From Levilinea saccharolytica (GTDB lineage: Bacteria > Chloroflexota > Anaerolineae > Anaerolineales > Anaerolineaceae), in assembly GCF_001306035.1 (NCBI RefSeq), contig NZ_LGCM01000019.1:62001-126000 (forward strand): 64,000 bases of DNA, given 5' to 3'. The notes under the pieces are model-generated. The model saw only the letters and a list, made by a program, of their open reading frames with translations. It was not told the DNA's origin and did not search any database. The translations under genes were made by a program, and so were the position numbers. Positions 3,968 through 14,212 of the stretch are shown here, piece after piece (position 1 is the first letter of the stretch; the number at the start of each line of letters is the position of its first letter).

Positions 3968-4006
3968 AGATCCATATTGGTAAATTCCAAGCACTTCTGA
4001 GGTTTC

Positions 4007-4813
4007 ATGAGCATCTTGACCCTGCTGACCGACTTTGGTCTGCAGGACGGCTATGTGGGCATCATGAAGGGCGTCATCCTGCGGATTGCCCCGCAGACCA
4101 CCCTGGTGGATATCACCCACGAAGTCCGTCCGCAGCAGATATTGGAAGGCGCCCTGACCCTGGAACGCAGCGTGCCCTATTTCCCCGCGGGGAGCGTGCA
4201 CGTGGCGGTGGTGGACCCCGGCGTGGGCACCTCTCGCCGTCCCATCGCCGCGCAGCTGGGGGATCAAACCCTGGTCGGGCCGGATAACGGCCTGTTCACG
4301 CTCTTGATCCAGGCCGCAGAACGCGGCCAACGCCCTGTGAAAATCGTCCATCTCAACCGCCCGCGCTTTTGGCTGGCAGAGCCGAGCAATGTGTTCCACG
4401 GACGCGATATCTTTGCGCCGGTGGGGGCGCATTTGGCCCGCGGCGTTCCGCTGGAAGAGCTGGGCACCCCCATTCAAGACCCTCTGCGCCTGGAACTGCC
4501 CCTGCCCCAGCCCATTGACGGCGGCTGGCGGGCGCAGATCATCCATATTGACCGCTTCGGCAACCTGGCGGTCAATTTGCGCACCCGCCACCTGGCGGGG
4601 ATGAGCAGCGTGCAGGTGCGCGTGGCTCGCCACACCATCCCGCGCCTTTCGCGCGCCTTTGGCGACGGCAAACCCGGGGAACTGGTGGCCTTGATGGACA
4701 GCTCCGGGTATCTGAGCGTGTGTCAGGTGAACGGCAGCGCCGCCGAGTATTTAAACGCGGTGGTTGGCGACTCTTTGGAAGTGATCGTAACCCGCAGCAG
4801 CACCGCGGGTTAA
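4007..4813 (+). CDS. S-adenosyl-L-methionine hydrolase (DUF62 family)
   Basis: Protein of 268 residues of the SAM hydroxide adenosyltransferase (DUF62) family, related to fluorinase and chlorinase. It splits SAM into adenosine and methionine. Typical blocks are LLTDFGLQDGYVGIMKG at the N-terminus, VHVAVVDPGVGTSRR (Asp and Arg of the conserved triad, about 70-78), GPDNGLF, and VFHGRDIFAPVGAHLA (His of the triad, about 130). A C-terminal beta-barrel half begins near IDRFGNLAVNL. It leads a four-gene operon with a complete ECF transporter, so the imported substrate may be linked to adenosine, methionine or SAM; the specificity is not visible. Confidence 0.92.
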   Translation: MSILTLLTDFGLQDGYVGIMKGVILRIAPQTTLVDITHEVRPQQILEGALTLERSVPYFPAGSVHVAVVDPGVGTSRRPIAAQLGDQTLVGPDNGLFTLLIQAAERGQRPVKIVHLNRPRFWLAEPSNVFHGRDIFAPVGAHLARGVPLEELGTPIQDPLRLELPLPQPIDGGWRAQIIHIDRFGNLAVNLRTRHLAGMSSVQVRVARHTIPRLSRAFGDGKPGELVALMDSSGYLSVCQVNGSAAEYLNAVVGDSLEVIVTRSSTAG

Positions 4814-4819
4814 CTTGAA

Positions 4820-6481
4820 ATGGAGGAACGCACCCCGATTATGCCCAATGAACTCCCCCTGGTCGTTGAAGATCTTTCCTTTCGCTACCGCAGCCGTGAG
4901 GACTGGGCTATTCGCTCGATGTCTTTTTCGGTGCAGCCGGGTGAACTGCTGCTGATTGCCGGCAGCAGCGGATGCGGAAAAACCACTCTGGCCCGCGCAA
5001 TCAACGGTCTCATCCCGCGCAGTTATAAGGGCGAACTCTCCGGCCGTATCCTGCTCCACGGCCAGGAATACACCCGCGCGCCGCTTTCGCGCATTTCGCA
5101 GGTGGTGGGCACCGTGCTGCAGGACCCCGAACGCCAGATTTTGGGCACGCGTGTGCTCAATGAGGTGGCCTTTGGGTTGGAAAACCTGGGCCTATCTCGC
5201 CCTGAGATTGTTGCCGCGGCGGAAGACGCCCTGAAGCGGCTGGGCATTTTGGCCCTGCGCGACCGCGAGACCTTCTACCTTTCCGGCGGTGAAAAGCAAA
5301 AAGTGGCCCTGGCGGGGGTTTTGGCCATGAAGCCCTCCATTCTGCTCCTGGATGAACCCCTGGCCAGTCTGGATCCGGCCAGCGCTCGCGAAACCCTGGC
5401 CATTGTGCGTCAGCTGGCGGATGAGGGCATGACGGTGCTCATGGTGGAACACCGCGTGGAAGATGTGATCCACATGCACCCCGACCGGGTGATGTTCCTG
5501 AAAGACGGCGAAATTCGTTATCTCGGCCCGCTGAGCGGCATGACTGAGGCGGTGGACTATCATCACATCAAGCTGCCCGCGCCGATGGTGATGGAACGCG
5601 CTGCCGCCGACCCGCCCCCCGCGCCGGTGACGCCCCAGCCCGAACGCTTCCGCACGGCTGCCGAGCAGCCCTCGGCCCCGCTGGTGCGCTTTGAAAACGT
5701 GGGCTTTGGCTATGACGACGAAGTGCGCGTGCTGAAGGGCATCAATCTGGATATCCGCCGCGGCGACATCATCGCTGTCCTAGGCCCCAACGGCGCGGGC
5801 AAGACCACCCTGGTGAAGCACGCCATCGGCCTGCTCAAACCCAAGGTGGGGCGGGTGTTGGTGGACGGGCGCGACACCCACGAGCTGAGCGTGGCGCAGA
5901 TTGCCAATACCCTGGGGTATGTGTTCCAAAGCCCCAGCCACATGCTCTTTGCCCCTTCGGTTCAGGATGAGCTGGCCTTTGGTCCCACCAATATGCACCA
6001 TGCCCCTGAGCAGATTGAAGCCGAGGTGCGCGAGGCCCTGGAGATTGTCCATCTGACCGGCTACGAAAAGAACCCGCCCCTGGCGCTGTCTTTTGGCCAG
6101 CAAAAACGGGTCAGCATCGCCGCCATTTTGGCCATGCGTTCGCGCATTTTGGTGATGGATGAACCCACTGCCGGGCAGGATTATAAGAATTACATGGACT
6201 TCATGGATGCCATTGTGCAAATGCCCAGCTTTGAGGCCATTTTATTCATCACCCACGATATTGACATGGCGGTGATCTACGCCAACCGCGTGCTGCTGGT
6301 GAACCAGGGCACGGTGGTGCGGGATGGGCCGCCGCAGGAGGTTTTGGCGGATGCGGAGCTGCTGCGCGGTAACCGTCTGGTGCCGACGTCATTATTGGAA
6401 GAAAACCTCAAGCATTTCCCCCAAACTGGACGGCTGCTGCGTGCAGAAGCATTGGCGCACGCGCTGCGCCCCACCGTTTAA
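4820..6481 (+). CDS. ECF transporter ATPase, two ABC domains fused (EcfA/EcfA')
   Basis: Protein of 553 residues holding both nucleotide-binding domains of an energy-coupling-factor importer. Domain 1 has Walker A GSSGCGKTT (about 50-58), signature LSGGEKQKVALA and Walker B ILLLDEPLASLDP. Domain 2 has GPNGAGKTT (about 320), a variant signature LSFGQQKRVSIAA and ILVMDEPTAGQD. A Pro-rich linker (about 255-275) joins them. Most ECF systems use two separate proteins; fusions are known. The start is uncertain: ATG at 4820 lacks a good ribosome site, and an in-frame ATG at 4841 (MPNELPLVV) lies 14 bases behind GGAGG. It sits 6 bases after the SAM hydrolase. Confidence 0.93.
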   Translation: MEERTPIMPNELPLVVEDLSFRYRSREDWAIRSMSFSVQPGELLLIAGSSGCGKTTLARAINGLIPRSYKGELSGRILLHGQEYTRAPLSRISQVVGTVLQDPERQILGTRVLNEVAFGLENLGLSRPEIVAAAEDALKRLGILALRDRETFYLSGGEKQKVALAGVLAMKPSILLLDEPLASLDPASARETLAIVRQLADEGMTVLMVEHRVEDVIHMHPDRVMFLKDGEIRYLGPLSGMTEAVDYHHIKLPAPMVMERAAADPPPAPVTPQPERFRTAAEQPSAPLVRFENVGFGYDDEVRVLKGINLDIRRGDIIAVLGPNGAGKTTLVKHAIGLLKPKVGRVLVDGRDTHELSVAQIANTLGYVFQSPSHMLFAPSVQDELAFGPTNMHHAPEQIEAEVREALEIVHLTGYEKNPPLALSFGQQKRVSIAAILAMRSRILVMDEPTAGQDYKNYMDFMDAIVQMPSFEAILFITHDIDMAVIYANRVLLVNQGTVVRDGPPQEVLADAELLRGNRLVPTSLLEENLKHFPQTGRLLRAEALAHALRPTV

Positions 6482-11454: not shown

Positions 11455-12813
11455 TCAGCGCGGCTGCCACAGCAAAATGCGCGCCCCGCGGGCGGGTAGG
11501 GGCAGCTGCACGCGGCCGCCCTGCACGGCGAACTGTGCGCCGGGGTGCAGAAGGTCTTCCAGAAGTCCTTCTGCGCAGCCGTCCAGCTCCAGGGTGAGGG
11601 TGATTTCTTCCGCGGCGTTGAAGGCCGCCAACACCCGCTGCCCATCCAGTTCGCGCCAGAAGGCTAACTGCTGGTGGGCCACATGCGCTGGACGGTAACC
11701 ACCGCGGCGCAGGGCGGGCAGTTGGCGGCGCACCTCGCTGAGCTGGCGCAAAAAGGCGGGCAGCGCAGGCTGCGGGGCGGTTTCAGTCAGTTGAGATAGA
11801 TCGAGAGCCGGGCGCAGAGGGGCGTCGGTTTGCCCTTTGACCCCACCCAGGCCAAATTCGCTGCCGTAGTAAATGGACGGCACGCCGGGCATGCTGAACA
11901 GCAGCGCGTAGAGGGGGAATACATGCGCGGGGTTGTGCAGGCGGCTGGCCACCCGATCCACGTCGTGATTGTCGGCGAAGTTATATAGGGGCAGCCCGCG
12001 GTACAGGCCTGCGCTGCCAAACTGCCGATTGAGGGCGTAGGCGATCTCGAAATAATTCGCGTCGTTCAGGCTGGAATACAGCCCCTTGTAGGCTTCATAA
12101 TTGGTGGTGGCGTCCAGCGTTTGAGGGTTGGCCCAGCGGGTGTAATCGCCATGCACCACCTCGCCCATCAGCCAAAAATCGGGGCGCAGACGGCGGCAGT
12201 GGGCGGCTAGAGTCTGCAGGAAACCCAAATCCACCACGTCGGCGGCGTCCAGACGCAGCCCATCAATATCGTAATCCTGAATCCAATGGGTCACCGCCCC
12301 CAGCAAGTGATCGCGCACCTCCGGGTGGTGCAGGTTCAGCTTGACCAGTGTGTCGTGGCCGTCCCAGGTGTCGTAGGTGAACGGATCGCCGCGGTGATTG
12401 GGTTGGCCGAAGCGCAGGCCCGAAAACCAGCCGGCATAGGGCGAATCCGGCCCGCGGGCTAGCAAGTCGCGAAAGGCCCAAAAATCGCGCCCCACATGGT
12501 TGAAGACGCCGTCCAGCACCACGCGGATGCCGCGCTGGTGAAAGGCGCGCACCACCTCAGCCAGGGTGCTGCGTGTGCCCAGGCGGCGGTCCACGTTGTA
12601 GTAATCGGCGGTGTCGTAGCCGTGGGTGCCCGATTCAAACAGCGGACCCAGATACACGGCGTTGCAGCCCAGGCTTTGGATGTGGTCGGCCCAGGGGAGC
12701 AGGCTTTCCAGGCGGGGGCAGGGCGCGGCTTGGAAGTCGTTATGGGCAGGCGCGGCGCACAGCCCCAGGGGGTAAATGTGGTAAAAAACGGCGTCGGGTG
12801 ACCAGGTGTGCAT
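11455..12813 (-). CDS. GH13 alpha-amylase family enzyme (cyclomaltodextrinase/neopullulanase-like)
   Basis: Protein of 452 residues, no signal peptide, so probably cytoplasmic. The four GH13 regions are present: DGVFNHVG (I), DGLRLDAADV with the nucleophile Asp (II), LMGEVVHG with the acid/base Glu (III) and FADNHDVDR (IV). It opens directly with SPDAVFYHIYPLG, lacking the N-domain of classical neopullulanases. The C-terminal beta domain runs from about residue 370. The ribosome site AAGGAG is well placed. It lies 56 bases downstream of tetR on the same strand and has its own copy of the 16-bp palindrome within a plausible promoter, so it is probably repressed until an alpha-glucan-derived or related signal binds the regulator. 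Confidence 0.93.
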   Translation of the reverse strand: MHTWSPDAVFYHIYPLGLCAAPAHNDFQAAPCPRLESLLPWADHIQSLGCNAVYLGPLFESGTHGYDTADYYNVDRRLGTRSTLAEVVRAFHQRGIRVVLDGVFNHVGRDFWAFRDLLARGPDSPYAGWFSGLRFGQPNHRGDPFTYDTWDGHDTLVKLNLHHPEVRDHLLGAVTHWIQDYDIDGLRLDAADVVDLGFLQTLAAHCRRLRPDFWLMGEVVHGDYTRWANPQTLDATTNYEAYKGLYSSLNDANYFEIAYALNRQFGSAGLYRGLPLYNFADNHDVDRVASRLHNPAHVFPLYALLFSMPGVPSIYYGSEFGLGGVKGQTDAPLRPALDLSQLTETAPQPALPAFLRQLSEVRRQLPALRRGGYRPAHVAHQQLAFWRELDGQRVLAAFNAAEEITLTLELDGCAEGLLEDLLHPGAQFAVQGGRVQLPLPARGARILLWQPR

Positions 12814-12829
12814 GGGTTTTCTCCTTGAT

Positions 12830-12859
12830 GGTATACCGATCGGTATAGAAACGAGTTAA
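12830..12859 (-). promoter_or_regulatory. Promoter with TetR-type operator for the GH13 gene
   Basis: Perfect 16-bp palindrome TATACCGATCGGTATA at 12832-12847. On the minus strand a plausible promoter TTAACT (12854-12859), 18-base spacer, TATACC (12830-12835) surrounds it, so the palindrome covers the spacer and most of the -10 box. The palindrome is identical to the one before tetR. Confidence 0.85.
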
Positions 12860-12869
12860 AAAAAGAGGC

Positions 12870-13436
12870 TTAGGAATAGATGCCGTGCTGAAATTGATGC
12901 ACGGCCTGTTCCACCAGGGCGGCGTCTAACTGGGTATAGCCGTTGAGGGCCATCGCCGCGTAGGTGTTGAGCATGCCCAAAAAGGTGGCGGCGTAGGCGC
13001 GCTGGCGGCCGCGCATATTGCCGTGCTGCTGCACTGCCTGAGCGAAGAGGGCTTCGAGGATGTCGTGCGCCTGACGGTTGAGGCTGGAGACCACCTGGAA
13101 ACCTTCGCTGTCGCGCGGGGCAAACCACAAGGCCAACTGCAGGCGGTAGAACCCGGGGTTTTCACGGGCAAAGGTGAACACGGCTTCGGCCACGCGTTTG
13201 AGGGTCAGCGGTAGGTCGCCTGAGTAGACGGCGGCCGCCTGCACCTGCTGGTTAAACTGTGTGAAGGGCGGGGTCAGCACCGCCTCTAACAGGCCGCGTT
13301 TGGAGCCGAAATAGTGGTAGAGGGTCGGCTTGGTGATGCCGGCGGCGTCCACAATTTCCTGAACGCCGACCGCATCATAGCCGCGGGCGGCAAACAGCTG
13401 CAGGGCGCAGCTCAGCAGGGCGACACGGGTATCCAT
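12870..13436 (-). CDS. TetR-family transcriptional regulator
   Basis: Protein of 188 residues from the ATG at 13436. The N-terminal helix-turn-helix is typical of the family (ALQLFAARGYDAVGVQEIVDAAGITKPTLYHYFGSKRGLLEAVL, about 10-54). The C-terminal all-helical ligand domain is unlike any I can name. A longer frame reading up to 13472 would run through its own promoter and is rejected. The promoter overlaps a perfect palindrome that recurs before the amylase gene just downstream, so it most likely represses itself and the amylase. The ATG is 7 bases behind the -10 box, pointing to a leaderless transcript. Confidence 0.92.
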   Translation of the reverse strand: MDTRVALLSCALQLFAARGYDAVGVQEIVDAAGITKPTLYHYFGSKRGLLEAVLTPPFTQFNQQVQAAAVYSGDLPLTLKRVAEAVFTFARENPGFYRLQLALWFAPRDSEGFQVVSSLNRQAHDILEALFAQAVQQHGNMRGRQRAYAATFLGMLNTYAAMALNGYTQLDAALVEQAVHQFQHGIYS

Positions 13437-13443
13437 GACGGCT

Positions 13444-13472
13444 ATTATACCGATCGGTATAGTTCCTGTCAA
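13444..13472 (-). promoter_or_regulatory. Consensus promoter of tetR with embedded operator palindrome
   Basis: On the minus strand TTGACA (13467-13472), exactly 17 bases, TATAAT (13444-13449). The palindrome TATACCGATCGGTATA at 13446-13461 fills the spacer and enters the -10 box, so a bound repressor would block polymerase directly. Confidence 0.92.
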
Positions 13473-13534
13473 GATGAAAAGGGCAATTCACTGGCGCAGA
13501 TTTGTTATAATCCCAGCAAACGAGGTGATCCCTA

Positions 13535-14212
13535 TTGATCCATATTGACCAGATCGTCCGCAGCAAACGCCGTACCCTGGCGCTGATCGTGATGCCCGAT
13601 GGGCGGGTGGTGGTGCGCGCACCCCTGGGGGCCAGCGACCAGGCCATCCGCACCTGGGTGGAAACCAAAGCAGACTGGCTGAAAGCCCGTTTGGCGGCTG
13701 TGCCGCCCCGCGAAACCTTTGCCGAGGGGCACAGCCTGTGGTACCTGGGTCAGGCCTGCCCGCTGCGCCTGGTAGATGCGGCCCGGCCCGCGCTGACCTT
13801 TCGCGAGGGAGTGTTTTACCTGGGGCGCAACTGGCTGCCGCAGGCCGAGGCGGTTTTCACCCGCTGGTACCGCGCCCAGGCGGCCCGCGTTTTGGGGGCG
13901 CGGCTGGCGCAGCGGGCGAAGCAGTTGGGTTATCCCTACCGCCGCCTTCGCATCAGCGCGGCGCGCACGCGCTGGGGCTCGTGCAGCTCCACCGGCACCA
14001 TCAGCCTCACCTGGCGGCTGGTGATGGCCCCGCCGGAGGTGGCAGATTACGTTATCGTGCACGAGCTGGTTCACACCCGCCACCCCAATCACAGCCCGGC
14101 TTTTTGGGCGCGGGTGGCCGCCCACCTGCCGGATTACCGGCAGCGGGCGCAGTGGCTGAAATCACAGGGCGCAAAATTGGCCCTTCCGCGCGGCGAAAGC
14201 CCCTACAATTAG
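13535..14212 (+). CDS. YgjP-like metal-dependent hydrolase (DUF45/M48-like)
   Basis: Protein of 225 residues with the zinc-hydrolase motif HELVHTRHPNHSPAFW (HExxH plus a downstream His, about 175-190) and the preceding ARTRWGSCSSTGTISLTWRL block typical of the YgjP/DUF45 family. Members are related to SprT/M48 proteases, and some have been described as nucleotide phosphatases; the substrate here is unknown. Start is TTG at 13535, supported by a strong ribosome site GAGGTGAT five bases upstream and by the lack of another start nearby. A TATAAT box lies at 13506-13511 in the intergenic space shared with the divergent tetR. Confidence 0.88.
   Translation: MIHIDQIVRSKRRTLALIVMPDGRVVVRAPLGASDQAIRTWVETKADWLKARLAAVPPRETFAEGHSLWYLGQACPLRLVDAARPALTFREGVFYLGRNWLPQAEAVFTRWYRAQAARVLGARLAQRAKQLGYPYRRLRISAARTRWGSCSSTGTISLTWRLVMAPPEVADYVIVHELVHTRHPNHSPAFWARVAAHLPDYRQRAQWLKSQGAKLALPRGESPYN

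Follow-up and report, generated by a model that had tools for sequence, protein, structure and literature searches.

The locus studied here raises the question of whether a TetR-family regulator represses both its own gene and that of a neighbouring glycoside hydrolase of family GH13 through two identical palindromes, as a first-pass annotation had proposed. The two genes lie in a window of 64,000 nucleotides (the whole stretch of DNA that was analysed) from a contig of Levilinea saccharolytica. Our comparisons make it very probable that the pair is a self-contained two-gene control unit, in which an autorepressing TetR protein would have the GH13 gene as its one target; the inducer would most plausibly be an alpha-glucan or a molecule derived from one.

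The regulator gene, tetR, occupies positions 12870..13436 on the minus strand. Its product, a predicted autorepressor of 188 aa, contains a TetR_N helix-turn-helix (HTH) domain followed by a TetR_C_33-like ligand domain, and it clearly belongs to the TetR family of regulators. In Pfam searches, the N-terminus matched PF00440 (E 8.4e-20; 70.7 bits against a gathering score of 24), and the ligand domain matched PF13305 slightly under the cut-off (E 1.5e-05; 26 bits against 26.8). The AlphaFold2 model (pLDDT 95.3) has nine helices and the all-helical TetR fold. The ATG at 13436 was taken as the start of the gene, this being the position at which the majority of sequences in a 33-row alignment begin; the TTG at 13472, which opens the listed open reading frame, falls inside the -35 box, and position 13472 is consequently part of that box and non-coding. 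The promoter that had been claimed for tetR, TTGACA-N17-TATAAT, was recovered by the promoter scan with 12/12 consensus bases (13444..13472, minus strand).

The palindrome is the 16-bp sequence TATACCGATCGGTATA, which has two perfect copies in the window. The predicted operator O1 (13446..13461) lies within the tetR promoter, in its spacer and over the opening four bases of its -10, and the predicted operator O2 (12832..12847) is located 5' of the GH13 start; both positions agree with those given in the first-pass annotation. A palindromic operator that overlaps the regulator's own promoter is common, though not universal, in the TetR family, and this trait is present here, with O1 in the tetR core promoter. 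Six perfect 16-bp palindromes, representing five sequences, occur in the window, and TATACCGATCGGTATA alone repeats. The window does not contain a third match to it with three or fewer mismatches (shuffled sequences averaged 0.02). The claim that the palindrome occurs exactly twice in the window holds for the 4.23-Mb assembly as well (4,230,078 bases in 65 contigs), in which the same two copies were the only exact matches. Two additional places in the assembly match with three mismatches, and each of them is within a long open frame.

The -10 of the tetR promoter ends 7 nt 5' of the ATG. Among the relatives described below, 73 of 106 loci have an operator that ends 8 to 12 nt 5' of the codon matching the tetR start in the alignment, and a TTGACA-like box (at least five of six bases) is found directly 5' of the tetR-side site in 93 of 106. 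With the operator end and the -10 so near the ATG, transcription is expected to start at or next to this codon, and the repressor mRNA is probably leaderless.

The GH13 gene (11455..12813, minus strand; 452 aa) encodes a catalytic and a C-terminal domain; a Shine-Dalgarno-like AAGGAG was read from the sequence at 12821..12826 on the minus strand. The catalytic domain was recognized in Pfam (PF00128, E 1.3e-45; 156.9 bits against 22), and the C-terminal domain fell below the cut-off. The closest solved relative is the cyclomaltodextrinase 1EA9 (E 1.8e-56), and the best solved relatives, which include 1EA9, 1SMA, and 1J0H, are annotated as cyclomaltodextrinase, α-glycosidase, maltogenic amylase, and neopullulanase. 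The catalytic Asp, Glu, and Asp are kept in the motifs DGLRLD, GE, and DNHDV of a 108-row alignment and align with those of 1EA9. The cyclomaltodextrinase/neopullulanase group, GH13_20, is defined by an N-terminal CBM34-type domain and the fifth conserved motif MPKLN. Pfam found no N-terminal CBM34-type domain in the 452-aa protein, and its fifth motif reads LVKLN where 1EA9 has MPKLN. The five best solved relatives align from residue 126 or later, and 5ZXG aligns from residue 26. Compared with the solved enzymes of 583-589 aa, the GH13 protein is without their N-terminal part; in length it is closer to 5ZXG (471), 2Z1K (475), and 2WC7 (488), which are also too short for a CBM34-type domain. 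Judged by its motifs and relatives, the protein is best read as a cyclomaltodextrinase/neopullulanase-like enzyme. Inspection by eye revealed no signal peptide; since the N-terminal part of the longer relatives is missing as well, the enzyme probably works in the cytoplasm, on imported or stored glucans.

A search of the 147 genomes of the family returned some TetR match at E <= 0.001 in 129 of them, within which the orthologues form a separate group. We took 64 tetR loci, down to E 1.6e-15, and assumed that weaker matches are paralogues. One weaker match, in genome G020 (39% over residues 101-188, with one internal stop), could be a decayed orthologue. A GH13 sequence is located downstream and in the same orientation at 61 of the 64 loci, and the remaining three are contig ends. 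One further arrangement was observed at L069 (G088:C250, 1420-1836), where an N-terminal tetR fragment shares one open frame with a GH13 fragment; this is apparently the remnant of a pair that decayed after a deletion, and it was counted among the 61.

In the reverse search, the GH13 orthologues among the matches listed extend down to E 1.9e-106, and paralogues begin at 1.0e-64. Five family genomes among these matches have a GH13 orthologue and no tetR orthologue. In three of them (G109, G063, and G116) the gene is at a contig edge. The other two (G093 and G122) are not explained in this way; their best operator-like match within 200 nt upstream of GH13 has six mismatches, and the neighbouring genes that were searched encode a methyltransferase, HMG-CoA reductase, a PIN-domain protein, and CysRS, together with one frame without a family. 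Genome G070 contains a GH13 fragment only (52% over residues 283-447), with no tetR orthologue. The other neighbours in the window (about 5 kb on each side) were found only in the same-genus genome, apart from a weak hit in L083; therefore, the pair is linked by more than the shared ancestry of the region. The distances between the TetR sequences correlate with the distances between the GH13 sequences (r 0.70 over 108 pairs), and the maximum in 1000 permutations was 0.16. Elsewhere in the window, the translations between 4820 and 8408 resemble an ECF-type transporter operon (a double ATPase, a membrane component, and a second membrane protein), which is unrelated to the pair.

For the counts of operators, T tracts, and promoter boxes, 144 loci were reduced to 121 distinct ones. 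Two truncated or fused loci (L065 and L069) were excluded from the counts of core operators and spacing and were included in the 115-locus T-tract count. An operator with three or fewer mismatches was found 5' of tetR in 106 of 118 distinct loci (within-gene control, 0/121) and 5' of GH13 in 70 of 114 (within-gene control, 0/112). At least one copy of the core TACCN4GGTA is present in all 111 loci for which both regions were available, compared with 3 of 2029 control windows. The control windows were 156 nt long and were taken from the same loci, and a tested stretch spans up to two such windows; because the consensus was drawn from the window itself, they are the appropriate reference.

Operators on the GH13 side vary more, with more than three mismatches in 44 of 114 loci, and the core is present on this side in 87 of 113 loci and absent from 26. 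Separate control of GH13 is thus not universal. O1 (three or fewer mismatches in 150 bp) is missing from 12 of 118 tetR promoters, which means that autoregulation is not universal either. The 12 include five Bacteroidota loci (L144, L160, L162, L181, and L186), each with an operator before GH13 only and none before tetR; in these, autoregulation seems to have been lost or to be absent. A frequent form of the operator on the GH13 side, seen at many loci (for example L088, L092, and L093), is TATACCTACCGGTA with TG or GG after it. Its half-sites could be paired into two palindromes that overlap at an offset of 4 bp, and such a site would perhaps be weaker or cooperative.

The exact pattern TATACCGNNCGGTATA was found at 67 sites in 51 of the 147 family genomes, compared with two sites for the reversed control pattern. 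Sixty-two of these sites belong to the pair itself, and a duplicate of its promoter at the edge of a contig (G145) accounts for one more, which leaves four in other places. Of these four, the sites in G027 and G042 and one of two in G078 are inside open frames. The other G078 site (L101, near 5001) precedes an ABC-2 exporter operon by about 90 bp and overlaps a 63-aa frame. It is the sole exact off-pair site in the family outside a long open frame, the G145 copy excepted, and it may be due to chance. A wider regulon was considered and rejected after inspection of these four exact sites, three being in open frames and one possibly fortuitous. We also observed a one-mismatch site between frames in G024 (L035), 1.2 kb from tetR. 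In 13 named-record genomes searched with a slightly shorter pattern, the pair accounts for nine of 11 sites, and the other two are both TATACCGGCCGGTAT; the reversed control pattern had hits in three of the 13. With few sites away from the pair, the regulon looks local and appears to have one target. The first-pass annotation had named the occurrence of the palindrome at random genomic sites as an observation that would refute its proposal, and the scans of the assembly, the family, and the named records did not find it scattered in this way.

On the minus strand, a T7 tract (TTTTTTT, 12858..12864) is located exactly 10 bp upstream of O2 and is a probable element of the GH13 promoter. Runs of at least six T were found in the intergenic region of 77 of 115 loci, compared with 5.6% of shuffled sequences and 17 of 118 tetR upstream regions. 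Of the 68 loci with both tract and core, 63 have the tract 8-11 bp ahead of the operator; the five Bacteroidota loci do not have the tract. The hexamers of the GH13 promoter proposed earlier, TTAACT-N18-TATACC, are present; however, the -35 is weak and was not reported by the promoter scan. This promoter would be better described as T7-N10-operator than by the proposed -35.

Beyond the family, we scanned one genome per species and used the best 80 of 463 tetR relatives; some of these genomes overlap the family set. A GH13 relative (at least 49% identity) follows tetR in 77 of these best 80 of 463, a sample that contains close relatives only. For two of the exceptions (L137 and L177), the contig ends within about 160 bp of tetR, and L185 is a real exception. 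In the latter (4001-5460), the regulator (51% identity) is followed instead by a gene whose translation resembles a short-chain dehydrogenase, and no GH13 orthologue was found in the genome. A change of the regulator's target is possible in this case.

According to the record titles, the carriers span at least six phyla. Most belong to the Chloroflexota; the others are from the Bacteroidota (Pontibacter and Cesiribacteraceae), Bacillota (Orenia and Halonatronum), Thermodesulfobacteriota, Ignavibacteriota, and Myxococcota, and one record is titled Cyanobacteria. Leptolinea, Ornatilinea, Longilinea, Pelolinea, Halonatronum, Orenia, and Pontibacter are among the cultured carriers named in the titles. 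As several carriers are named strains, binning errors are insufficient to explain all of them. In the TetR phylogeny (61 rows, with the bootstrap unsettled), the Bacteroidota sequences form one supported group, which sits in a clade with eight Chloroflexota and one Thermodesulfobacteriota sequence (98/86). The Chloroflexota label changes 10 times on the drawn tree, and only three of these changes are forced by starred branches. Transfer of the pair between phyla is likely. Its distribution is patchy: in a sample of 400 genomes from across the phylum, only 22 gave a match at E <= 1e-25.

Clustering of the ORFs at the 80 loci identified GH13 as the only widely recurring neighbour of tetR; neither a third conserved gene family nor a sugar transporter recurs widely beside the pair. 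This clustering was rough, as mechanical picking missed genes and tetR itself was clustered in 67 of 80 loci. The next commonest clusters are found in 10 and eight of the 80 loci, and the former is antisense to tetR and therefore probably not a gene. We offer, as a tentative proposal to which we give somewhat less than even weight, that the pair has travelled between phyla as a portable regulator-enzyme cassette and is the founder of a TetR class, so far undescribed, that senses an alpha-glucan-derived signal.

The autorepression and co-repression postulated in the first-pass annotation gained comparative support from the gene order, from the operator at one or more promoters in all testable loci, from the small number of sites elsewhere, and from the absence of a site in the two genomes that contain GH13 without the regulator. 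Gene order, operators and their positions, conservation, and rarity elsewhere were read directly from the sequences. For dimer binding, repression, inducer, and substrate, we infer the following. A TetR-family dimer would sit on O1, in the core promoter of its own gene between the -35 and the -10, and TetR would also bind O2 at the GH13 promoter, so that neither gene would be transcribed. The repressor would be freed by a small molecule, for which an alpha-glucan (e.g., maltodextrin) or a metabolite thereof is the most plausible candidate. The cytoplasmic GH13 enzyme and additional repressor would then be produced, and the enzyme would clear the inducer, completing the circuit. Where a lineage has no second operator, GH13 would probably be co-transcribed from the tetR promoter.

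Co-transcription could also be the rule: both genes may form one operon expressed from the tetR promoter, with the second palindrome acting as a roadblock or fine-tuning site and no separate promoter at GH13. The 26 of 113 loci without the core between the genes, the gaps of down to 16 nt, the weak -35 that the scan did not report, and the absence of a terminator-like hairpin before the T tract (mean z -0.04, 78 loci) are all consistent with a single operon. However, the tight spacing between T tract and operator (63/68 at 8-11 bp) is promoter-like, and the five Bacteroidota loci retain the GH13-side site only; we consider a single operon possible, though on the unlikely side. The T tract and the 3' end of tetR might instead constitute an intrinsic terminator or attenuator lying between the genes and keeping them apart, a suggestion that would fit the excess of T runs (77/115 against 5.6% of shuffles) and an inverted repeat in the window, CCGTGC...GCACGG, which ends 18 nt before the T7. 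In contrast, the energies of hairpins before the tract are those of shuffled sequences (n=78; 11.5% below a z of -1.5), the terminator scan found no terminator between the genes in the window, and there was no Rfam match in 12600-13700. On these grounds an intergenic terminator or attenuator was rejected as quite improbable. Without a hairpin above chance before it, the tract is unlikely to be a terminator, and it is probably part of the GH13 promoter.

Our preferred model has a sugar ligand, to which the nearest regulators in sequence or fold do not point, since several of them bind acyl-CoAs. TetR might repress both genes and sense acyl-CoA or another energy or lipid signal, with GH13 mobilizing internal glucan according to the metabolic state. 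The best NCBIfam model for TetR is FasR (NF053731), which scored 58.2 bits against a cut-off of 330, so that the protein falls outside the FasR equivalog; FasR aligns with most of TetR at 27-31% identity. FadR gave the highest Z to the TetR model (20.1 over 184 residues). According to the structure titles, FasR was solved with C20-CoA and FadR with stearoyl-CoA, and both are named for the control of fatty acids. The lack of a widely recurrent sugar transporter and of a signal peptide in GH13, as judged by eye, would also fit such a signal. However, other regulators are about equally close: Mce3R, matched over the HTH only, ranked first by E-value in the PDB sequence search, ahead of FasR, and HapR and PfmR are at the top of the Foldseek list. 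TetR ligand domains readily shift specificity, which lessens the weight of these matches, and a ligand linked to the enzyme is favoured, since the regulator is paired almost one-to-one with a glucan hydrolase. An acyl-CoA or similar signal therefore appears unlikely, at roughly one chance in a few. That the palindromes are fortuitous or belong to another regulator is scarcely credible, given the core operator in 111/111 loci against 3/2029 control windows and the absence of a site in G093 and G122, where GH13 occurs without tetR.

LacI-family regulators of the MalR type are local regulators of maltodextrin genes. The pair resembles these systems in the local control of alpha-glucan genes; however, its regulator belongs to another protein family, and the MalR-type gene sets are larger and include transporters. 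MalR is among the regulators named in PMC4746261. The same paper describes BgrT, TetR-family regulators predicted by comparative genomics to govern beta-glucosidases in bifidobacteria, whose groups each have a palindromic site of 18-22 nt. The claim that a TetR regulator is unusual for a starch-type enzyme holds, yet BgrT is a precedent. In both cases, to judge from the description of BgrT (PMC4746261), local TetR-family regulators adjoin glycoside hydrolase genes and have a palindromic site. By the same description, BgrT is linked to beta-glucoside and beta-galactoside genes together with transporters, mostly in Actinobacteria (PMC4746261). In contrast, the TetR-GH13 pair has one alpha-glucan-type GH13 target and no widely recurrent transporter, and its carriers are mostly Chloroflexota. 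A full-text search of the open-licence literature found no published TetR–GH13 pair. Taken with this search, the BgrT precedent makes the TetR-GH13 set a new orthologous group of a kind already known; its support is unusually broad and consistent.

The regulator, its operator, and a single likely target are defined here for some 120 distinct loci, and what one gel shift shows would apply to every one of these. Should the ligand be a glucan, α-glucans would join the signals sensed by TetR proteins, and the pair would provide a compact sensor usable across phyla. If the pair is indeed a cassette that has moved between phyla, one small sugar-responsive switch would have been available, ready-made, from the Chloroflexota to the Bacteroidota and Halanaerobiales.
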